A program made the translations under genes and the position numbers. A stretch of DNA of 45,845 bases from a virus, in IMG/VR virus record IMGVR_UViG_3300008952_000091, positions 1-45,845 of that record; one strand, given 5' to 3'. A model generated the notes under the pieces. It was not told where the DNA came from. It made no database searches and saw only the letters and a list, made by a program, of their open reading frames with translations. Each line of letters starts with the position of its first letter. The first letter of the stretch is position 1. Below, one piece after another: positions 4,473 through 42,605 of this stretch.

Positions 4473-4781
4473 CTAGCGCCTAATAAAGCGTTCTGCCAAC
4501 CTTGAAATAATCCCACTCTTTTTTTTATGGTTATGCGAGTCGTTCACCATAGCGGTAAACTCAACATCAATAATAGGTGAAAGGATTTCGGCAAGTTGTC
4601 TGTCTGCGTTGAATTTTCCACGCAACAACGATATTGATTCAAATACTGCGGTTGTTCTGTCGGGGGCACGAACTTTAATTAAAATTACTTTCTTCTTTAT
4701 GCAAATGCCAAACAACATTGTGCGAATCCTCACAGGTACCACGAATTTCCTGCATGACAACTGTTCCGCTTTCCCCTTCAT
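4473..4781 (-). CDS. Hypothetical protein upstream of portal
   Basis: About 102 residues from the ATG at 4781; an in-frame TTG lies 15 bases further upstream. The protein is basic, with a hydrophobic beta-like patch near residues 24-40 and a basic C-terminus (RLAERFIRR). It follows directly after a terminator hairpin and precedes the portal on the same strand. No Shine-Dalgarno sequence is visible and no family is recognised, so it could be a chance frame. Confidence 0.4.
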   Translation of the reverse strand: MKGKAEQLSCRKFVVPVRIRTMLFGICIKKKVILIKVRAPDRTTAVFESISLLRGKFNADRQLAEILSPIIDVEFTAMVNDSHNHKKKSGIISRLAERFIRR

Positions 4782-4796
4782 GGTATTAACATACAA

Positions 4797-4827
4797 AAAG
4801 GGCGAGAACTATCAAGCCTCGCCCTTT
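4797..4827 (-). terminator. Rho-independent terminator
   Basis: A perfect 10-bp stem (AAAGGGCGAG / CTCGCCCTTT, loop 4807-4817) is followed on the minus strand by a run of five T. It ends the transcript coming from the DUF932 gene and the hairpin-rich stretch just upstream. Confidence 0.85.
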
Positions 4828-4829
4828 CC

Positions 4830-5130
4830 GTAAAATATGCCACGGTTTGGATTTCTGCCCAAACCCACTTACGTCTGCGCCCACCAGTACAAGCGTCTTG
4901 ACGCTTGCCTATTGAGGAGATTCGGCTCTTGCGACCTACTCTTCCCGTAAGTGTATGGTTGCTTCACCTCAAGGGTGATTACGCCATCGTGACCAAGAAA
5001 TTGAAAAGCACCACAGTTCTTTGTACGCACAAGGGTACGAACGCTGTGGCACTTTAATAATGAAGGCACGGCAAGGTGGGGGCTGATTTTCTCCCTCCAC
5101 GGCGTTTTCATCCCCGCGCCAAAAGTGTTT
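4830..5130 (-). ncRNA. Candidate structured RNA
   Basis: This 300-base stretch between the DUF932 gene and a terminator is rich in stable hairpins on the transcribed strand. They include a 12-pair helix AAAGUGCCACAG with CUGUGGUGCUUU (counting G-U pairs) topped by UUC/GAA and GUAC/GUAC, an 8-bp CAAGCGUC/GACGCUUG hairpin, a UCACC/GGUGA hairpin, GUGG-GGG/CCC-CCAC, GGCG/CGCC and GGUUUGG/CCAAACC. A 97-residue open frame also crosses it (4869-5162), but its product resembles no protein I know and begins inside the DUF932 gene. I do not recognise a known RNA family. A transcribed 3' regulatory region is an alternative. Confidence 0.45.
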
Positions 5131-6195
5131 CTAGTTATTCCAAACATCGGATGGAAGCTCAATGACTTGCCCCCCTATTGCTTCTAGCTCTACAGCTCTC
5201 TCATAGCTTTCCGCATCATGAGCGGAACTCGTGACTGCATTAGCGAGTCCCCACTGGCTCAAGTCTCCACCTTTTGTTAGGTGAGATAGTATTCCTGAAG
5301 ACTCGTCTTGCGTTACGCTAAATCTATTTGCAATCAACTCCACTGCTTCTACCGGCTTTGGAATTTCAATCCCGGCAACTTCCCTGTACTTGTTCAATAC
5401 ATACTCAAATTTCTTTTCATCGAGAACCGTATCAACCAAGTCGTTGACTTGCATCCAAAACGCCTTGTCGGTCTGGCGCCTAGTACCCTCAGAAAATATT
5501 TCGGAGTCCACATCGTACTCATTGGCAAGGCGCTTACCTGCATGATACTTTCTCACTCCTGAGTCTGCTACTGTCATGCCGTTATTGCAAACCAGACGGT
5601 TAATCCATGGGTTTACCTGAAATGAACCCATCCCGACTTCGCTGTTTCTGATTTGAATTCCAGCTTGCACTACATCGCCCTCTCTGACTTCTCCGCGCAC
5701 CTCAGGGAACACGGCATGCACAAAAAGGAAAGTTTCACCCACGTCGCACGACTTCAAGTGATAACCGTCCTTGTTTAGCTTAGGCAGAATGTTTTCGAGT
5801 AAATCGTAGTTATCCAAAGGACGATAGCTTTTGCCCAAAAGTGCGCGAGCAACTCCTTGTTCGGGTGAAGAAACCATAAAGCCAGACTTAAAGGTTCTTA
5901 GGCACTTTGCCTCCTCTTCCTTTTCTAGCCATCGGTTAACGTTGCTTGCGAGCAAGTCAGGCTCATTCTGTAGCATTCTCCTGTAATACTTGATTGGAAT
6001 GTTGAGCTTACTGGAAGCCTGTCTGTGAAAAACATCAGTACAGGAGTAATTCCTTTCGTCCCCATTGAGCCTCATGGTTAATGACGAGTCTTCCTGCATT
6101 TCTATGGATTTGCCGCTTACCAGAAAATCCTCCCTAAATGAGCTTTGGTTTGTAACGTCATCTGCGAGTTGCTGTATGGTCATGGTCTGTTTCAT
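5131..6195 (-). CDS. DUF932 family phage protein
   Basis: The 354-residue protein has the hallmarks of the DUF932 (phage/plasmid-like, TIGR03299-type) family: GKSYRPLDNYDLLENILPKL near residues 121-140 and a glycine-rich segment with QAGIQIRNSEVG and FQVNPWINRLVCNNGM. These proteins are common in phages and plasmids and their biochemical role is not established. The start at 6195 has an AAGGA ribosome site. Translation ends at a TAG just before the hairpin-rich region, and the terminator at 4797 is its first strong stop signal. Confidence 0.85.
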   Translation of the reverse strand: MKQTMTIQQLADDVTNQSSFREDFLVSGKSIEMQEDSSLTMRLNGDERNYSCTDVFHRQASSKLNIPIKYYRRMLQNEPDLLASNVNRWLEKEEEAKCLRTFKSGFMVSSPEQGVARALLGKSYRPLDNYDLLENILPKLNKDGYHLKSCDVGETFLFVHAVFPEVRGEVREGDVVQAGIQIRNSEVGMGSFQVNPWINRLVCNNGMTVADSGVRKYHAGKRLANEYDVDSEIFSEGTRRQTDKAFWMQVNDLVDTVLDEKKFEYVLNKYREVAGIEIPKPVEAVELIANRFSVTQDESSGILSHLTKGGDLSQWGLANAVTSSAHDAESYERAVELEAIGGQVIELPSDVWNN

Positions 6196-6225
6196 TTTTT
6201 TCCTTATTGTTATTTGTTTTCGTTA

Positions 6226-6480
6226 TTAGCTATTAAATTGTGGAAACGGAGGAGGTTCCTTGTGCTTTAGTAGGTATCTTTCTCCCATTTTTTTAAACAG
6301 TTTGATATTTAAATCCATTTTGACGGTTCGAGACTCCATCTCTTTTTCGTCTGAGTCAGATATGGTTCCGGATTCAATTATTTTTGCCGCCCATATCTGG
6401 AACTCTCTCAAGTCCGAGGATAGTTTAATGCGAGTTTTTTCTATCTCCGCTTTATCCTTATTTTTTTCACTTATTTTCAT
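6226..6480 (-). CDS. Small hypothetical, Lys/Glu-rich helical protein
   Basis: An 84-residue protein starting MKISEKNKDK, strongly charged and probably coiled coil, ends PPPFPQFNS. No known family. It is the first gene after a TTGACA/TAGTTT promoter and lies immediately before the DUF932 gene, so the two are probably co-transcribed. Confidence 0.65.
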   Translation of the reverse strand: MKISEKNKDKAEIEKTRIKLSSDLREFQIWAAKIIESGTISDSDEKEMESRTVKMDLNIKLFKKMGERYLLKHKEPPPFPQFNS

Positions 6481-6489
6481 TTAATGCCC

Positions 6490-6518
6490 AAACTACTCCA
6501 TTCGAGCATATATGTCAA
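6490..6518 (-). promoter_or_regulatory. Sigma-70-type promoter, stop codon inside the -35 box
   Basis: TTGACA (6513-6518), a 17-base spacer and TAGTTT (6490-6495) lie upstream of the small gene starting at 6480. The TGA stop codon of the preceding glycosyltransferase gene (6515-6517) is part of the TTGACA box. Confidence 0.6.
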
Positions 6519-7270
6519 TACGGAAATATAACAATTCTTTCTCCTTCATTTACGCTCTTCTTTAATTTGCTTTGCTTCTTTGGCTTAATCATATCTGCTC
6601 CAAATAAAGCCTGAAGCCTTTGTGTGTTCTTTAGCATGGAATCCGTTGTCCTGTACATTGCGCATCCACCATCACTTGTGAAGTTTTGGTAAGTCTTGAA
6701 TACAAATCGCTGGTCGATTACTGAAAAGCGGTTTTTATATATATTCAAGCAACATATATAATAATCCTCTCCCTCATCAAAGCTAAGGTCATACTCTAGC
6801 CCGTGCCCATCTAGGAAACCCATAAATGAATTATTGACGAACTTAGTATGAATAATCGGACGCTGTGACTCATACTGCACCGGTTCTCGCGCGTTACTAA
6901 ATCCGAAATGAAATCCTCCTATTTGCTTGGTAATACTAGCCAAGTCCTGAATAATTCCCCATGACCTTTCTGGGTCTGTTATGTTTGTTTCCATTGTCTG
7001 AGACTCGACCCACTGCCTGCGTATTTGGAACACGTCGTCGTCTATCATGAATATGTTTTTCCAGCGTTCCAGCATCCATTGCCTAGTTGCGGTTATTCCC
7101 CTAATGTCGTTAGGGCATGCAACGATTTCATTATCAGGCAAATGAGCCTTATACTCGTGAACCTCGTATTCTGGTACTACGAATATAACATTGCTTACCA
7201 TGTCTTGGACTAAGGTCTTGCCCGCCCTGCCCATGCTTGGACTTACTAAGTCTACTATTCTTTCACTCAC
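6515..7270 (-). CDS. GT-A-fold glycosyltransferase-like protein (copy 1)
   Basis: The 251-residue protein begins MSERIVDLVSPSMGRAGK and has IFMIDDDV at residues 74-80. The DDD triplet is the metal- and nucleotide-sugar-binding DXD motif of GT-A enzymes, and the N-terminal PS.GR segment is shared with three other proteins in this window. Such small single-domain proteins resemble the TET/JBP-associated glycosyltransferase group described for phage DNA base modification, but I place it there only tentatively. It is linked by a 4-base overlap to a 60-residue gene that is in turn coupled to a ParB-like gene. The acceptor could be DNA, protein or a small molecule. Confidence 0.65.
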   Translation of the reverse strand: MSERIVDLVSPSMGRAGKTLVQDMVSNVIFVVPEYEVHEYKAHLPDNEIVACPNDIRGITATRQWMLERWKNIFMIDDDVFQIRRQWVESQTMETNITDPERSWGIIQDLASITKQIGGFHFGFSNAREPVQYESQRPIIHTKFVNNSFMGFLDGHGLEYDLSFDEGEDYYICCLNIYKNRFSVIDQRFVFKTYQNFTSDGGCAMYRTTDSMLKNTQRLQALFGADMIKPKKQSKLKKSVNEGERIVIFPY

Positions 7271-7449
7271 TTTCTTAGACCCCTTTCAATGTGAACCTCA
7301 TCAACACCCCAAGGATAGTGCTTCATTAATTCCCGAGCGCGAGTTCTGATAACCTTGGGAACTCTGGGGGTCGCCTTTGGGTTTATTATATCGCGCAAAA
7401 ACTCCCTAGTTAAAGTAATCGCCATCACCTTTTGTTCGGTAGTGGTCAT
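7267..7449 (-). CDS. Small coupled protein between ParB-like and glycosyltransferase genes
   Basis: A 60-residue basic protein (MTTTEQKVMAITLTREFL...). Both ends overlap the neighbours by 4 bases (ATGA type), so translational coupling supports it as a real gene. No family is recognised. It may belong to the same functional unit as the ParB-like and glycosyltransferase proteins. Confidence 0.75.
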   Translation of the reverse strand: MTTTEQKVMAITLTREFLRDIINPKATPRVPKVIRTRARELMKHYPWGVDEVHIERGLRK

Positions 7450-8228
7450 GTGTCTTCTCCGTCGTCAAGGCTCATGCCCTCAACTTCCCTATTAAGTTCG
7501 TCCAGCGACAAGTTTCTTGCTTCACTAACTTCGGCGGCGTCGTCGGAAAGTCCGGCATTGTTCAAGTGCTCGAACATTTTGTCCTGAAACTGAGTCGCGC
7601 TTAATACGTAGGATGGCATAACCACATTGCTCTTATAATCCATTTGGGAATCAGTAAGACCTAGATAGTTTCTCATCCAGTGAATATCCAGCTCATTGTT
7701 GCAGAAAATCATAAACGTTGAGTACTTCTCATTATACTTGGGAACAATAGGATACTTTTTTTCAGCAAGTTCCGCCTCAATTTCTTCTGCGGATTCTTCC
7801 ATCTTTTGAATGTCCCTCCAGTGGTCCGACAAGTCCCTTTCTGAGAATCCCCAATCAACAAGTTGCTCTTCGTTGAACTGGTCTTTCAGCATGGAGTAGT
7901 CCCAGTCGCCTTGGTTTTTATTTAACCTAATGTTAAGTTCTTTTTCATCATCAAAACTGAGGTTTACGAAGACAGCGGGAACCTTTTCCATGCCCATCTT
8001 TCTGGCAACCTTTACCCTTTGGTGACCACCCACTATTACATTCTTCCTGTCTGGGTTTTCATTTATTACCACAGGGTCAACAAAGCCGAACTTAGTAATA
8101 GAGTCTTTAATGTCCTCAAGCTTCTTATTTGATAACGTGCGTGGATTGTACTCGGCGACCACCAAGTCTTCCACATCCATAATTACAATATCAAGCTCAG
8201 GGTGTTTTTCTACTGCTTCATCGCTCAT
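7446..8228 (-). CDS. ParB-like nuclease/sulfiredoxin-fold protein (copy 1)
   Basis: The 260-residue protein has the N-terminal ParB domain: VAEYNPRTL near residue 24, then NVIVGGHQRVKVARKMGMEKVPAVFV, where the GGHQR loop is the nucleotide-binding and catalytic-type motif of the fold. An RLNKNQGDWD segment follows, as in the phage ParB group. The C-terminal half carries a separate domain (KYSTFMIFCNNELDIHWMRNYLGL). Chromosomal ParB partners with ParA at parS sites, but no ParA gene is present, and phage members usually sit with DNA-modification genes. Here the neighbours are glycosyltransferase-like proteins and a RecU-like resolvase. Confidence 0.85.
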   Translation of the reverse strand: MSDEAVEKHPELDIVIMDVEDLVVAEYNPRTLSNKKLEDIKDSITKFGFVDPVVINENPDRKNVIVGGHQRVKVARKMGMEKVPAVFVNLSFDDEKELNIRLNKNQGDWDYSMLKDQFNEEQLVDWGFSERDLSDHWRDIQKMEESAEEIEAELAEKKYPIVPKYNEKYSTFMIFCNNELDIHWMRNYLGLTDSQMDYKSNVVMPSYVLSATQFQDKMFEHLNNAGLSDDAAEVSEARNLSLDELNREVEGMSLDDGEDT

Positions 8229-30822: not shown

Positions 30823-30883
30823 TTTTGCAAGGGCATAGCATGCCATAAAGCAAAAAATTGCTCCTGAAAGAAGGAGAGTGAAG

Positions 30884-31783
30884 ATGGAAAAATTTTTTTT
30901 CAAAATAGGCCTTTTTGGCTCCACAGGGTACATTGGGAAAAAAGTAAAGGCAGCAATTGAAGCAAATCCACATATGGAGGTCTTCATAGCCACAAGAACC
31001 ACTCATCCGGAATTTGCAGCCAGAACTTGTGACGCCATATACAATGCCGCAGGTTACGTGGGGAAACCCAACGTAGACGCCTGTGAAGATGATGACGTTG
31101 AGGTGGACTTGTATGAGTCAAACGTATCATTTGTATGCAGGCTAAGGGATGCTTGCCAAAGGTTTGACGTACCACTTCTGCACGTATCCAGTGGGTGCAT
31201 ATACCAAGGAATACCCCCAAGTGGAGAAATCCCACAGAATGGTAATTTCAACACCAAGGGATGGACTGAGGATGATAGACCCAACTTTGATGGCTCAAGG
31301 TACGTTAAGTCCAAACTTAGAGGGGAAGACTCCCTAAGGTGGTTTGAAAAAAAATTGGTGCTTAGACCAAGAATGCCTTTCTGCTCACTGGTTGATGATA
31401 GAAACCTTCTGGTCAAAATGAAAAATTTTAAGTACATAGTGAATGCTTGGAACAGCATCACTGATGCTGATGAATTTGCCAAGCAGTCATGTGATGCGCT
31501 GGTAGGCGCATGCCTAGGTACCGTGCCTTTTGGCACTTACAATTTATGCCATGACAAACCTGTCAGCAATGGCAGGATTTTAGAGATTCTCCAATCAGTG
31601 GGCATAGCATGCCTGCAAAACCAGAATATGGTCAACCCTGTGGACTTTAACAAGGATATGCGCGCACAGCGCTCCTTTACTGTGCTTGACTCAAGCAAGG
31701 CTAAAAAATATGGCTTTGCTCTGCAGGGCAATATTGAAAATGTTATTCTCAAACAGGCTAAAACACTAGCAAGTAGACTATAA
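30884..31783 (+). CDS. RmlD-like NAD(P)-dependent sugar reductase/epimerase
   Basis: 299 residues of the extended short-chain dehydrogenase fold. The Rossmann motif GLFGSTGYIGKKV is at the N-terminus, NAAGYVGKPNVDAC follows, then SSGCIYQG and YVKSKLRGE (YxxxK). The closest match is the RmlD/dTDP-4-dehydrorhamnose reductase-type group. I chose the ATG at 30884 because AAGGAG lies 7 bases upstream; a GTG at 30878 is too close to it. It would alter a nucleotide sugar, perhaps supplying donors for surface or DNA glycosylation. Its strand and lower GC suggest later acquisition. Confidence 0.8.
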   Translation: MEKFFFKIGLFGSTGYIGKKVKAAIEANPHMEVFIATRTTHPEFAARTCDAIYNAAGYVGKPNVDACEDDDVEVDLYESNVSFVCRLRDACQRFDVPLLHVSSGCIYQGIPPSGEIPQNGNFNTKGWTEDDRPNFDGSRYVKSKLRGEDSLRWFEKKLVLRPRMPFCSLVDDRNLLVKMKNFKYIVNAWNSITDADEFAKQSCDALVGACLGTVPFGTYNLCHDKPVSNGRILEILQSVGIACLQNQNMVNPVDFNKDMRAQRSFTVLDSSKAKKYGFALQGNIENVILKQAKTLASRL

Positions 31784-34289: not shown

Positions 34290-35463
34290 GTTAGGGAAAA
34301 CGCAGTGTTTATGCAATCTCAAAGGCATTTTGCAAGGTCGTTGTGAATAACTTTTTTCACTTTTTTTTCCCTCCTTAAATGTCTATCCGTCAAGTACTTA
34401 GGGAAATCGCAAAAGCACAAAGTCAAGTTTTTTTCCGCATTTTAGTCATGAAGTCGTTTTTTGGACTTTCGGCAATTTCTCCGTTTTTTTTATTCTGTAA
34501 AGACTTGAAAAACAAGCACTTCGACCAATTAATTTTAGAAAATTTTGAGACGCAAAAAAACGCAAAAAGGCAACTTTCCTTTGTTTACTTAGGCTAGCGA
34601 AGGATTGGAAAAGTCGCAAAATCGCATATTTTGGTGGACTTGGTTTAAATATGTAGAAAAAAAGCGTGACTTATTCTCTTTTTTTTCTGTACGAAAAGTT
34701 TGCAATTTTCGCTTTTTGAGATTGAATCTCATCGTTTTTGAGACTCCGTATCAATAGGGAAATTTCGCAGAAACAAGGCATGCTTTTTTTAAAAATTAAC
34801 TATAGGCAATTTTTCATATCGCTAATTTTCGTCAAGACTTTTTTGACAAGCGGTTTCGTGGATTTGAAAAATATTATGCATACAATAAATTTTTTTTATT
34901 GCACCAACAGTTTTTTTGGTCAAAATGCTATTTCAGCCAGAGTTTCACCTATTTTGCACCGCCCCGTTCTTGTTTCCCGACCACCACGCCGAAGGACATT
35001 TGGCACCGCCACGCCTAGGGAGTTGTGGACCAGTACAATCAGGCCGTCCTCAGTGTGCTTTCCTGTGCCTAGGGATACACCCAAAAACTGGTCTTGTAAG
35101 TTATTGGTTATCAACCTTTTGCATTTTGTCTTTTTTTGCAAAAAATCTCATTTTAGAAATTTCCGGCATAGCTCCAGTCGCCGTTGCTGTTTTGCTTGGC
35201 CGTACCGATGCCTCAGTGCTGTCCTGATGGGTTCACAGCCTGTTTGCCACCTTGACCACGGCCCGCTTGCCACCTTGACCACGCCGTCCTACCTGACCTC
35301 TTACCTTCCGTCCTGAACTTATTGCTGTTCCACCACGCCTGAGCTAATCTCTCACCGCCCTAGGGAGGACCTAATTGGCTCGCGCCCTCGCCACCACCGC
35401 CTTCCCTAAAGTTGCGTTTTGGTTCGAGTTCCTTCCGAAACCTTTGACCGAGCACAAAAAAAT
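34290..35463. other. Long non-coding region
   Basis: About 1.2 kb without a convincing gene. The first ~630 bases are AT-rich with many T runs and a perfect TGTGAATAA (34342-34350), which matches the DnaA-box consensus. The rest is C-rich and G-poor on the plus strand, with copies of an ACCGCC...CCTAGG motif (35001-35022, 35341-35369). A 13-codon frame with a strong AAGGAGGG lies near 34370-34330 on the minus strand. Open frames of 70-190 residues occur on the plus strand but look like chance. Confidence 0.6.
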
Positions 35464-35516
35464 GGGAGCCGCCTGTGCTTTGCAGTCCTACACTGCGCGG
35501 CACTCTGGCGGCTCCC
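35464..35516 (-). terminator. Long terminator hairpin
   Basis: GGGAGCCGCC (35464-35473) pairs with GGCGGCTCCC (35507-35516); inner GTGC/GCAC and TGCAG/CTGC helices extend it. The minus strand continues with ATTTTTTTG. It ends the 35542 gene. Confidence 0.8.
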
Positions 35517-35541
35517 CGATGAACAACAACCGTAGTCTAAA

Positions 35542-35739
35542 TTACGTTACGTGGCGTAACTCAAATCCTTGCTTGGTTTCTTCGATGAACTTGCGCTCTC
35601 CGATTTTGACCGCCATTCTCATAGCAATCTTGACTGCAGTTGTTCTTCCCTCCACCTCTGTTACGTTCTGGGTCTCAGTATCTGTGATGTTCCAGAAGTG
35701 TCTGAAGTTTGGGTTTCGTTTAATTCTGATTGTAGGCAT
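35542..35739 (-). CDS. Small basic hypothetical protein
   Basis: 65 residues, MPTIRIKRNPNFRHFWNITD..., with a C-terminal basic part. AAGGAG precedes the start. Follows the 35761 gene by 21 bases and is followed by a strong terminator. No family recognised. Confidence 0.7.
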   Translation of the reverse strand: MPTIRIKRNPNFRHFWNITDTETQNVTEVEGRTTAVKIAMRMAVKIGERKFIEETKQGFELRHVT

Positions 35740-35760
35740 TATTGTTGTTCTCCTTGATTG

Positions 35761-35946
35761 TTATAACATTTTGTTCAGTTCCTCAGATGCTTTTAGCAAC
35801 TTTTCAAATTTTTCTCGCTCGCTTTTCCATGCTTTGCCGGTGGTTGCAAGTGCGTTTGCTTCTGCGTTTTTTGCAGTACGTGTGCGAAGTGCGCGCGCGT
35901 GACGTTCAAGTTCGGCGGGCGTTAGTTTACTTTTCTTATTTAACAT
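35761..35946 (-). CDS. Small charged helical protein, probably leaderless mRNA
   Basis: 61 residues, MLNKKSKLTPAELERHARAL..., mostly helical. The ATG is 6 bases downstream of a TAAGTT -10 box, so the transcript probably starts at or next to it. It leads a two-gene operon. No family recognised. Confidence 0.7.
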   Translation of the reverse strand: MLNKKSKLTPAELERHARALRTRTAKNAEANALATTGKAWKSEREKFEKLLKASEELNKML

Positions 35947-35952
35947 ACTAAC

Positions 35953-35981
35953 AACTTACTCCGGTTCTATCTATTTGTCAA
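35953..35981 (-). promoter_or_regulatory. Promoter of the right-end family (first copy)
   Basis: TTGACA (35976-35981), 17 bases, TAAGTT (35953-35958), then 6 bases to ATG. The spacer contains AACCGGAG before the -10, as in the other copies. Confidence 0.7.
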
Positions 35982-36215
35982 GCTATCTGGGAAATTTTTT
36001 TTATCTTTTTTGCTTGTCGTGAAACAGTGCCACGCTCCTTTACAAGCTATGATTGACATTCCCATCACTAGGGCTGGCTCCGTTGCCACGCCTATCGACC
36101 TTAACCTTACCATGACCTCGCCAAACCTGTCGGCGTCTTGGGATGGCATTCCTACCTCCAGACCTAGCTTGGTCATTTGTCTGGAGAACTCTGCTACCTC
36201 ACCTTGCGACGGCAT
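35967..36215 (-). CDS. Hypothetical protein
   Basis: 82 residues, MPSQGEVAEFSRQMTKLGLE..., with helices and a central VATEPALVMGMSIIACKG hydrophobic stretch. GAGGAAC lies about 11 bases before the start. Its 3' end overlaps the downstream promoter. Could be chance, but the amino-acid composition looks natural. Confidence 0.5.
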   Translation of the reverse strand: MPSQGEVAEFSRQMTKLGLEVGMPSQDADRFGEVMVRLRSIGVATEPALVMGMSIIACKGAWHCFTTSKKDKKNFPDSLTNR

Positions 36216-36275
36216 AACTTTTTGTTCCTCTCTTTTTTCCTGTCGGTGAACACTATGGTCCTCGGCGCTCTGACT

Positions 36276-36512
36276 TTACTTCTTATTTTCATTTTTCAAT
36301 TCTACCGCGGTTGCTATTTCTTCTGCAAGCTCTTCCACGGACTGCTTGGCGACGTGCTGACGATACTTCCTGCGGTCGTCTGGCGTGCTGGCTCGTTCCG
36401 TGACCTTGAGCGGGTGGATTCGGATTACCTCAAGACTCGGATGCTTTAGCTCTCCGCCGTCCCTCGGGTTCATGTCGTAGTCCACACTGTATGGGTCTTC
36501 TGAATTTGGCAT
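36276..36512 (-). CDS. Hypothetical protein
   Basis: 78 residues, MPNSEDPYSVDYDMNPRDGG..., with a charged C-terminal helix ending in lysines (NENKK). A GAGGAAAC ribosome site precedes the start. Follows the 36530 gene by 17 bases. Confidence 0.7.
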   Translation of the reverse strand: MPNSEDPYSVDYDMNPRDGGELKHPSLEVIRIHPLKVTERASTPDDRRKYRQHVAKQSVEELAEEIATAVELKNENKK

Positions 36513-36529
36513 TTTAGTTTCCTCGGTTG

Positions 36530-36721
36530 TTATCGTGTTCTCTCGAAAAACTTATCCCAGCGCTTGGCGTCTTCTATTTCTTGCCTCGATAGTCGGCGAG
36601 TACGTCCTGACTTGGTGATGAATTTTCCGTCTAGATTTTTAATCGCCTCGCGAAGGTAAACTCCGTCTGAAACGTTTCTGGCTATTTGACTCCTGCGTGC
36701 GCAGGCTGCTGCTCTAGGCAT
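36530..36721 (-). CDS. Small very basic protein
   Basis: 63 residues, MPRAAACARRSQIARNVSDG..., rich in Arg and Lys, with an AAGGA ribosome site. A 17-codon frame starting 5 bases after the promoter -10 (36766) ends by overlapping this start and could be a leader. Possibly nucleic-acid-binding. Confidence 0.65.
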   Translation of the reverse strand: MPRAAACARRSQIARNVSDGVYLREAIKNLDGKFITKSGRTRRLSRQEIEDAKRWDKFFERTR

Positions 36722-36771
36722 TGTTTTTCCTTAATTTGATGGTTATTGTCTTGCTCATTTTGAACATATAA

Positions 36772-36800
36772 CAAGATACACCGGTTTCCCTAGAGAGTCA
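36772..36800 (-). promoter_or_regulatory. Promoter of the right-end family
   Basis: TTGACT (36795-36800), 17 bases and TATCTT (36772-36777), then GTTAT and ATG. The spacer contains CTAGGGAAACCGGTG, close to the copies at 37678 and 39585. Confidence 0.75.
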
Positions 36801-37098
36801 AATGATTTACCACAGTTTTTTCACTTTATTTTCAGTCCAAGACCTCCTCCTGAGCCTACCACGGCGTCAACTACCTCGACCTGACCGCATGTCGCGAATA
36901 CCACGACCACGACATATCTGCCAGACCTACTACCTGCAAACCTCCTGAGCCTTGCCACGACCTTGCCACCGTCCACGACCACGCCAACCTTCCGTCCTTC
37001 CAACCTCGCCCTTCAGGTCTACCTTCCTTGCCCGTGTGCATCTCTTACCGCCTCACCTATGGGCTTATTGTACCGCCTCGTGTGTGATACCGCCTCAC
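36801..37098. repeat. G-poor intergenic stretch with CCTAGG-type repeats
   Basis: No supported gene. The plus strand is strongly C-rich and G-poor (CCACGACC and CCTACC runs). It holds motif copies with ACCGCCTCACCTA(T/G)G at 37038-37063 and 37086-37106, the latter overlapping the stop codon of the 37099 gene. The repeated unit also occurs near 35012, 35355, 37880, 40055 and 42833. Confidence 0.6.
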
Positions 37099-37988: not shown

Positions 37989-38675
37989 TTAAAACAGCCA
38001 TTTTTGCCCGTTTTGCTCGGATATTGTTCCGGTTGTGTCTATATCTAGGTCAGAATCTGGCATTAAAGGGTTATTAGAGCCTACAGGAGGGCGGGCGTCT
38101 TCTTGCAGGTACTTGGGTGCACGGTGAAAATTCTCAGCCCAATCACGCCTCTCTGCTTCTTGCGGCAACTCTTCGTGATTCTCTAGGTGTGAACCTTCGG
38201 TGAAAAAGTCGAGTACGGTCTTACCGTTAGCCTTGCCCCTCCTAGTGTGTACATCTAGCGCGCAATCAGGTATTTTTAAGGCGTTTGGACTGCTTGGGTC
38301 GCATTCCATACGGCTTTTATGCTGGTTGACTACGCACATTTTCGTCCAATCTATAAGCCGGGACTTCTTTGCTCGGCTTAGGTAGATGACCGCTTGAAAG
38401 ATTGCTAGGCGCTCGTGTGGGTCTTTTGCGGAGTGGAGGCGCTGGTACATATCATGGTATTGCATGACCCTGCCCACAGCATCCGGGTCGGCCAAACCGA
38501 CGTCCTCGGACGATATAATCAGGGTGCGCTTCCAGAAATACTTCGCAAATCCGCTAATATAGAGTTCGTAAGCAAAATGCAGAGCATCCTCCTCCATCCC
38601 TCGCCTTATGCACTTCTGATAGGCGGAGCTTACTTCAAAAAAGTCTAGCCCGCTCTTGGTTCGTAGGTCGCTCAT
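37989..38675 (-). CDS. Stand-alone MgsA/RarA C-terminal-like protein
   Basis: 228 residues. Residues ~18-70 match the C-terminal part of RarA/MgsA: KCIRRGMEEDALHFAYELYI, a short gap, then WKRTLIISSEDVGLADPDAVG. In RarA this part follows the AAA+ ATPase and helps tetramerise and bind the replication fork; here no ATPase is attached. An acidic C-terminal half follows. An AAGAGGAGC ribosome site precedes the start. It may act on host RarA or be a fork-binding module. Confidence 0.6.
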   Translation of the reverse strand: MSDLRTKSGLDFFEVSSAYQKCIRRGMEEDALHFAYELYISGFAKYFWKRTLIISSEDVGLADPDAVGRVMQYHDMYQRLHSAKDPHERLAIFQAVIYLSRAKKSRLIDWTKMCVVNQHKSRMECDPSSPNALKIPDCALDVHTRRGKANGKTVLDFFTEGSHLENHEELPQEAERRDWAENFHRAPKYLQEDARPPVGSNNPLMPDSDLDIDTTGTISEQNGQKWLF

Positions 38676-40230: not shown

Positions 40231-40259
40231 AAGGTACTCCAGTTTACCTGCAATGTCAA
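40231..40259 (-). promoter_or_regulatory. Promoter of the right-end family
   Basis: TTGACA (40254-40259), 17 bases and TACCTT (40231-40236), then ATAGT and ATG. The TGA stop codon of the upstream gene (40256-40258) lies inside TTGACA. Confidence 0.8.
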
Positions 40260-40555
40260 GTGATTGTGTGGTTTTTTATTCTTTGTAAGTTGTCTACCCG
40301 CTCTTTTAGTGCGACGTAGAGGGCGGTATCGACTCCCGAAGGTTGCGTGGGATTGGAGATTCGTCTTCCAAACGTCAGCCAGCCCCGCTCTTCTAGGCGG
40401 TACAGAGTCTGTGCGGTTAATAGCTCCCAGTATACGCAGGTTTTCGCTATGCTCTCCACTGAGTAGAATAACTGTCTATTGAACGATAGTATGGGCAGTA
40501 CCGCCAGCGCTTGTATAGAGAACTCGTCTTTTCTTTTCATCCATTGGTATCCCAT
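40256..40555 (-). CDS. Hypothetical protein, possible winged helix
   Basis: 99 residues. SIAKTCVYWELLTAQTLYRL followed by EERGWLTFGRR could be a winged-helix unit, but this is weak. The start is preceded by AAGGAA within the stop region of the amidotransferase extension (TAA then GGAA), suggesting coupling. Confidence 0.5.
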   Translation of the reverse strand: MGYQWMKRKDEFSIQALAVLPILSFNRQLFYSVESIAKTCVYWELLTAQTLYRLEERGWLTFGRRISNPTQPSGVDTALYVALKERVDNLQRIKNHTIT

Positions 40556-40559
40556 TTCC

Positions 40560-41081
40560 TTATCCTTTCATTCTGATTGCTTGTTCTATTTCTTCGATGT
40601 TCTGCTGAACCGCCACGGGGTCGATGAGTGGGTCGATTTCTTCAAACCCTTCTCTTAACTGTCCTCCGACGTATATGTCGCTCACGAGTGGGCAGAAGAC
40701 ACCATGCTTATCTTCGATTGGGTCGTACATGGTGTCTACCGCCATAGTTTCGCTAGGGGTTGGTGTGGAAATTCTGTCCGTATCTACGTCTCCCGTATCT
40801 GGACATGAACTCGTTTGACCTACCTCTCGCGCTAGTTCCAGTTGGAGAGATGCTCGTTCGGATTTCGGTACCCACCGCTCCACTCTTGGGCGCGTTGGTA
40901 CTTTTTTTTTACCCTTAGCCTTTTTCTTGTTCGGCTTGCCGACAATGTCGTTGGCGGTTGCCGCGGACTTATTGCGAGCTTCCTTGCAGTAGGAAGTGCT
41001 CGCGCCATAGTAGGCGGTCGTGTACCTAACTTGCAAGTGAAGGTGACTGTCATTGGAGTACCATACTCCATTTTCCCAGTT
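40560..41081 (-). pseudogene. In-frame extension of the amidotransferase beyond a TGA
   Basis: This frame has no ATG start and is exactly continuous with the amidotransferase frame across the TGA at 41082-41084. It encodes NWENGVWYSNDSHLHLQ... and then a long charged region. In phage class II amidotransferases of this type I recall an NE-x-x-G-W-x-x-GVWYSN-like block at this point; the sequence here reads NESA, TGA, NWENGVWYSN. So the TGA probably sits where a codon such as GGA would be expected. Either the gene is broken, or the TGA is read through to make a 338-residue protein. It is listed as pseudogene because the second case is unproven. A TTG at 41036 is a poor alternative start. Confidence 0.6.
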
Positions 41082-41576
41082 TCAGGCAGACTCATTGATA
41101 ATGACCGCCTTGCCTTTCTTATTGAGAAATACAAGTTTCGAGCCGGAACCGATGAGCTTTTCGAGAACTAGCTTGCCGTATTCGCTATAAATGATGCGAG
41201 GGTTACCTCGATTCATTGGTCCCACGTAGTGCTTTACAAAAGCATTCGTGTCGGACGTTAGCGCGTCAACTCCCTCAATCCCGCTGATAATTCCGTTGTG
41301 AATCATGGCGAGGTCTGGAGCGACCTTGAATGGGTGGCAGTTGTCCTTATCGACAAGACCATGAGTTGCCCACCGAAAGTGAATAAGCATTGGCTTATCC
41401 ATGTGCGGTACTAGAGCTTCCCAGAATGGCTTGAAGGTCATAAAACCTTTCTCAATGACAACCTTGCCTTTTTCGACGTAGGCGAAACCTGCTCCATCGT
41501 CATTGTTGTCGAAAGCAGTCTGCATATGGAACTCGTCCACTTTCTGGTTTTCTGGTTTCAAAATTGCTAAACACAT
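41082..41576 (-). CDS. Class II glutamine amidotransferase-like protein (to the TGA)
   Basis: 164 residues starting MCLAI, so Cys2 is the nucleophile after Met removal, as in Ntn-type glutaminases. HFRWATHGLVDKDN and MIHNGIISG are the Arg-TH-G and NG glutamine-binding blocks. It would release ammonia from glutamine for the amidoligase encoded directly upstream. AAGGAA precedes the ATG. The TGA cuts the frame inside a conserved region (see the entry for 40560-41081), so the product may be truncated or extended. Confidence 0.8.
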   Translation of the reverse strand: MCLAILKPENQKVDEFHMQTAFDNNDDGAGFAYVEKGKVVIEKGFMTFKPFWEALVPHMDKPMLIHFRWATHGLVDKDNCHPFKVAPDLAMIHNGIISGIEGVDALTSDTNAFVKHYVGPMNRGNPRIIYSEYGKLVLEKLIGSGSKLVFLNKKGKAVIINESA

Positions 41577-41687: not shown

Positions 41688-42605
41688 CTATACTCGCGAA
41701 TCATATTGCAGTGCCATGCGTTCGGCAGTTCTGCGCATTCCTCGGAAGTTGTCGCGAAAGACCGGCAGGAAGTAATTTCTACCTAGGTGGTGATGAAACC
41801 ATTTTAGACTTTCAGCGCCACATCCCGGTGCTTTCTGCGTGAACGGAAGTTCCTTGAGTGAAACATTACGTTTTGCGTTGTGTATAATTGAATACACAGT
41901 CCAGAGCGCGTGGAGAATCTTCTGCTTGTTGAGAGTTCCCGCGAATGCACGGAACTCGACAGTTCCCTTGCCGTTCATGTTCTGAAGGTTGACGGCATGG
42001 TATCGCTCCAGATGACTCAGAGAGTTTCCGTGGCGACACTTTTCAGAATCTGGCTTTTGGTGTTCCGAGCGCACATTCATTACCCAGTGTGACTCATCTT
42101 GGATGCGTCCGCAGTAGGTGTTTCTGTCTCTGCGAGTTCCGGACTGTGCGTAAAGCGCGTCCTGCCATCGGTAGGTCAAGTGAGCTACTTTCGTTAGAAA
42201 GTTCACGACCTTGGCGGCAGATGCTCCCCGTCCTAAAACGGAATCTATTCCGCAGTGGATGTGCATACCGCACGAGGCGTTGACTCGCGTTGGCAAGTCT
42301 CTAAGCCAATCAGTAAACGCAAGCACGTGTTGAACCCCGTCTTGCCCTACTAGAATCGGAGATACGAACTCACACGCATATCGCTCATAATTGCGAGTAT
42401 CCACGGATGAATCGTTCTCTACTGTCCACCTGTTGCAGCCAAATCTAGGTGCATCATATACCGGTTCTCCGGCATGATAGTCACCTATGTCGATATTATC
42501 GGCGTAGTCTCGCGGAATTAGGCATTCTAATTCTACTCCTATCGTCCAATCTTCGCCTTTGGACTGCTGTCCTTCAAACATATTTAATTGTGTGTCTATA
42601 TCCAT
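41688..42605 (-). CDS. Amidoligase family protein
   Basis: 305 residues with the putative amidoligase pattern: GVELE (residues 23-27), WTVENDSSVD (60-69), ACEFVSPI (78-84), SCGMHIH (111-117), GTVEFRAF (214-221). The fold is glutamine-synthetase-like. These enzymes join an amine or ammonia to a carboxylate. The amidotransferase is the next gene downstream, matching the known phage pairing of a class II glutaminase with an amidoligase. The target is unknown; cell-wall peptides or phage proteins are suggestions from earlier work on this family. Confidence 0.8.
   Translation of the reverse strand: MDIDTQLNMFEGQQSKGEDWTIGVELECLIPRDYADNIDIGDYHAGEPVYDAPRFGCNRWTVENDSSVDTRNYERYACEFVSPILVGQDGVQHVLAFTDWLRDLPTRVNASCGMHIHCGIDSVLGRGASAAKVVNFLTKVAHLTYRWQDALYAQSGTRRDRNTYCGRIQDESHWVMNVRSEHQKPDSEKCRHGNSLSHLERYHAVNLQNMNGKGTVEFRAFAGTLNKQKILHALWTVYSIIHNAKRNVSLKELPFTQKAPGCGAESLKWFHHHLGRNYFLPVFRDNFRGMRRTAERMALQYDSRV

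Follow-up and report, generated by a model that had tools for sequence, protein, structure and literature searches.

We found that a tailed phage carries a predicted class II glutamine amidotransferase gene that is interrupted by one in-frame TGA, and that this stop probably arose through a recent glycine-to-stop substitution in an otherwise ordinary phage gene (rough probability 0.6). The window analyzed here is a whole metagenome-derived virus record of 45,845 bases, known only once, in which genes for a portal protein, a head maturation protease, and a primase-helicase mark the virus as a tailed phage. The interrupted gene and its immediate neighbors are laid out as follows:

41576 down to 40560, (-) strand: predicted amidotransferase frame, starting with MCLAI and carrying RWATHG and MIHNG
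41082..41576, (-) strand: upstream open frame of 164 aa, with most of the predicted class II glutamine amidotransferase domain (Cys2, RWATHG, MIHNG, SDT)
41082-41084, (-) strand: in-frame TGA at codon 165, in a column that is Gly in NE-type homologues
40560..41081, (-) strand: same frame past the TGA, 173 codons plus TAA, recognized by alignment with the two syntenic relatives, coding score, and model strands
40560-40562, (-) strand: TAA ending the downstream frame
41688..42605, (-) strand: upstream partner, a predicted amidoligase of 305 aa (Amidoligase_2, PF12224; E 3.7e-22)
40256..40555, (-) strand: next gene, 99 aa, with a homologous gene at the corresponding place in both relatives

The 164 residues encoded upstream of the TGA show weak but consistent matches to glutamine amidotransferase families, namely phrog_25883 (E 4.5e-11) and Pfam GATase_6 (E 2.9e-05, short of that family's curated cutoff), and phage class II amidotransferases can be aligned with them. 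In a 42-sequence alignment, the Cys2 following the initiator Met (MCLAI) is invariant, as are R68, G73, N94, G95, D109, and T110, and T71 and H93 are conserved in at least 90% of the sequences (the motif residues being numbered C2, R68-W-A-T-H-G73, and M91-I-H-N-G95). An AlphaFold2 model of the read-through residues 1-200, in which the TGA was read as W, has a mean pLDDT of 93.5 and matches the GlmS glutaminase domain (1xff) with a Z of 15.1 and an rmsd of 3.4 over 172 residues (model range 2-180). The Cys2, the Arg/His/Gly, Asn-Gly, and Asp-Thr motifs, and the Ntn fold of the model are those of the class II (Ntn) enzymes; motifs, family matches, and GlmS-like model thus bear out the class II assignment made in the first-pass annotation, and on these grounds we predict the protein to be a class II glutamine amidotransferase. 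The same model places two strands after the stop (166-168 and 171-173), just ahead of S174 and N175, two residues with at least 90% conservation across the 42 aligned sequences. Under the standard code, the 164-aa product stops before these strands and falls short of a complete domain.

The frame past the TGA specifies the last β-hairpin of the domain (W..GVWYSN), followed by a Lys-rich linker and a conserved tail (WVPKSER, ED..GVFCPLV). Its openness exceeds random expectation (when the bases of the tail were shuffled 2000 times, the frame stayed open in none), and its codon-usage score in frame is 0.166 versus 0.170 for the upstream part; the other frames of the tail score at most 0.044, with 3 to 13 stops apiece. 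We detected no further stop or frameshift in the tail, and the upstream and downstream frames are one gene. The Lys-rich linker includes nine consecutive A residues on the coding strand (about 40902-40910, (-) strand; codons 223-225), a possible slippage site, although the frame is intact there. The first-pass annotation had placed the TGA and its 173-codon continuation exactly, leaving the (-) strand unstated. Its remark that the continuation lacks a start codon is right to the extent that no in-frame candidate past the TGA is preceded by a convincing Shine-Dalgarno sequence, but such codons do exist (TTG at codon 181; GTG at 232, 298, and 321; ATG at 278, 283, and 336).

The nearest relatives recovered are two IMG/VR contigs, 3300021958_000041 (hereinafter L010), the nearest syntenic one, and 3300048034_000948 (L011), with intact amidotransferases of 299 aa and 287 aa that have the Gly codons GGA and GGC, respectively, at the column of the TGA. 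Their amidotransferases are 55% (L010) and 53% (L011) identical to that of the window, and their amidoligases 68% and 65%, with the gene order around the pair being shared. Both can be aligned with the window protein almost from end to end, the tail motifs W(L/V)PKSER and (E/D)D..G.F.PL included, such that the block downstream of the stop has homologous counterparts in both. More broadly, a stop at the junction is absent from all 52 homologue entries fetched, several of which are near-duplicates. Gly occupies the TGA column in all homologues of the NE..G.W..GVWYSN type, as had been anticipated along with the GGA codon now seen in L010; more distant homologues are without the NE..G.W motif. A contig near-identical to the window and bearing either allele was not found by the junction pattern, by a DNA search of phage records, or by scanning with three proteins (the amidoligase, the enzyme of L010, and the primase-helicase), searches whose reach possibly does not extend to records very close to the window. 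In a further viral contig (L030), we observed four tandem class II amidotransferase paralogues on the (+) strand (4587-5198, 5278-5895, 6001-6771, and 6907-7758).

When the genes of the two syntenic relatives were aligned to the window, an in-frame stop on the correct strand and in the correct frame was seen in the amidotransferase only, the other alignment rows with stops being ORFs that are antisense or out of frame, or a weak paralogue; no other in-frame stop is present across 31 conserved genes (7,516 codons). Of the changes upstream of the stop, 30 of 54 are private to the window lineage, as are 22 of 40 downstream; because this share is equal on the two sides, there is no visible relaxation of constraint past the stop. 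Given a tail that retains its coding score and shows neither a further stop nor a frameshift nor relaxation, three readings are left: a very young stop, a contig error with no such stop in the real phage, or a stop that is ineffective in that it is read through.

We favor the first of these. In this tailed phage, which carries the known pairing of a predicted amidoligase with a predicted class II glutamine amidotransferase, a single substitution would have turned glycine codon 165 of the latter into TGA. It is judged recent from the lack of any other decay in the frame, and the nonsense allele might thus be new or segregating in the phage population. Translation should halt after 164 residues, with the last β-hairpin and the C-terminal tail missing, and the truncated enzyme would probably be unstable or inactive; both a genuine base and a likely loss of function are inferred here. 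The 99-aa gene starts 4 bases past the amidotransferase TAA and may be translationally coupled to it; because of this spacing, the nonsense codon might also lower translation of the 99-aa gene.

The strongest competitor is a one-base error in the metagenome consensus, with the real phage gene being intact and retaining its Gly, which we consider possible though on balance doubtful. Since the sequence consensus alone was examined, such an error accounts for the same data as a real substitution; accordingly, the one-base nonsense change and the sequencing error named as options in the first-pass annotation are both supported and are not told apart. An error would be in keeping with a record that is metagenome-derived and known only once, with relatives that are all intact, and with a lesion confined to one base in the absence of other decay in the gene or of any other broken conserved gene. 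However, consensus errors are rare where a short-read assembly has good coverage, the site of the TGA has no homopolymer or repeat, and a random substitution in the conserved genes would create a stop in only about 4.8% of cases. The junction region occurs just once in the contig.

A read-through gene, too, would be expected to show an undecayed tail. Leaky or programmed readthrough of the UGA, predicted to give a short 164-aa and a full-length 338-aa product, would fit the intact, coding-like downstream frame and its changes without relaxation, and the RNA flanking the stop has a somewhat stronger fold than its shuffled versions, a weak signal (z -1.9, with 13 of 200 shuffles equally good). 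We nevertheless regard it as improbable: the stop is conserved in no relative, although conservation would be expected of a programmed event, and all homologues give one full-length protein. Moreover, the contig, which is perhaps incomplete, has no tRNA gene and hence no suppressor tRNA of its own (a host tRNA being conceivable), and it has no Rfam match. These observations go against the programmed readthrough entertained in the first-pass annotation. Likewise, the column is Gly in the NE-type homologues and not Cys, Sec, or Trp, and the family thereby suggests neither selenocysteine nor Trp insertion; the former was ruled out on the basis of this homologous column. The specific version in which the TGA is real, fixed in the phage, and read through at a useful level, with truncated and full-length amidotransferase both predicted to be made, is a shade less probable again.

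Very unlikely is a gene split in two, with the second protein translated by a restart past the TGA. An in-frame TTG does lie 16 codons beyond the stop (near 41036), but no Shine-Dalgarno sequence precedes it (CCAATGACAGTCACCTTCAC) and there is no ATGA-type overlap, and the cut falls inside the domain, ahead of the conserved hairpin, rather than at a domain border; we ruled out this arrangement as it has no well-formed start site. Translation of the phage with TGA as glycine (code 25, which Gracilibacteria and Absconditabacteria use) has a next to negligible probability: the TGA is situated exactly in a Gly column, and standard-code phages predicted to infect such hosts, compatible with them and without in-frame TGA, have been reported, but the code-25 phages of the same study are dense in in-frame TGA, unlike the window (PMC10746230). 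The lack of any other in-frame TGA in the 31 conserved genes and the use of TGA as terminator by 13 of them, in several cases overlapping the next gene as ATGA or TGA, rule out genome-wide reassignment under code 4 or 25, in agreement with the earlier view that whole-genome recoding is unlikely.

Elsewhere in the window, an RmlD/epimerase-like sugar reductase gene lies on the (+) strand (30878-31783), almost all other likely genes being on the (-) strand. The stretch 34400-36900, between two gene blocks, is scarce in long or conserved ORFs. The (-) strand gene at 37989-38675 codes for a protein that matches only the C-terminal part of the MgsA AAA+ ATPase (PF12002, E 5.1e-10), with no ATPase part reported, and is kept in both syntenic relatives.

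For annotation, the locus is best described as one interrupted amidotransferase, neither two genes nor evidence of recoding, and it has little significance beyond that. If the base is real, the phage amidotransferase would be dispensable, at least temporarily, and this would have a slight bearing on the role of the phage amidoligase/amidotransferase pairs. The phage gene pair of amidoligase and class II amidotransferase is of an already known type: the two genes have been reported together in OM43 phages and in the LUZ24-like phage UFV-P2, in which, as in the window, an amidoligase gene is present (PMC10580990; PMC3890496). The window protein shares its fold with the GlmS glutaminase domain (1xff) and the PurF-type amidotransferases; unlike GlmS and PurF, it stands alone and has a different C-terminal tail, with no sugar isomerase or phosphoribosyltransferase domain seen. 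Phages MEP401 and MEP402 also belong to the gene-pair type; their enzymes are class II amidotransferases that have Cys2 and are 43% identical to the window protein over residues 1-178; where their motif reads N-E-x-x-G-x-W-x-x-G-V-W-Y-S-N, the Gly codon is TGA in the window and the frame is interrupted. The C-terminal tail of the window protein is unlike that of the MEP phages and is found only in L010 and L011, which share both tail and gene order with the window, their own genes being intact with Gly.
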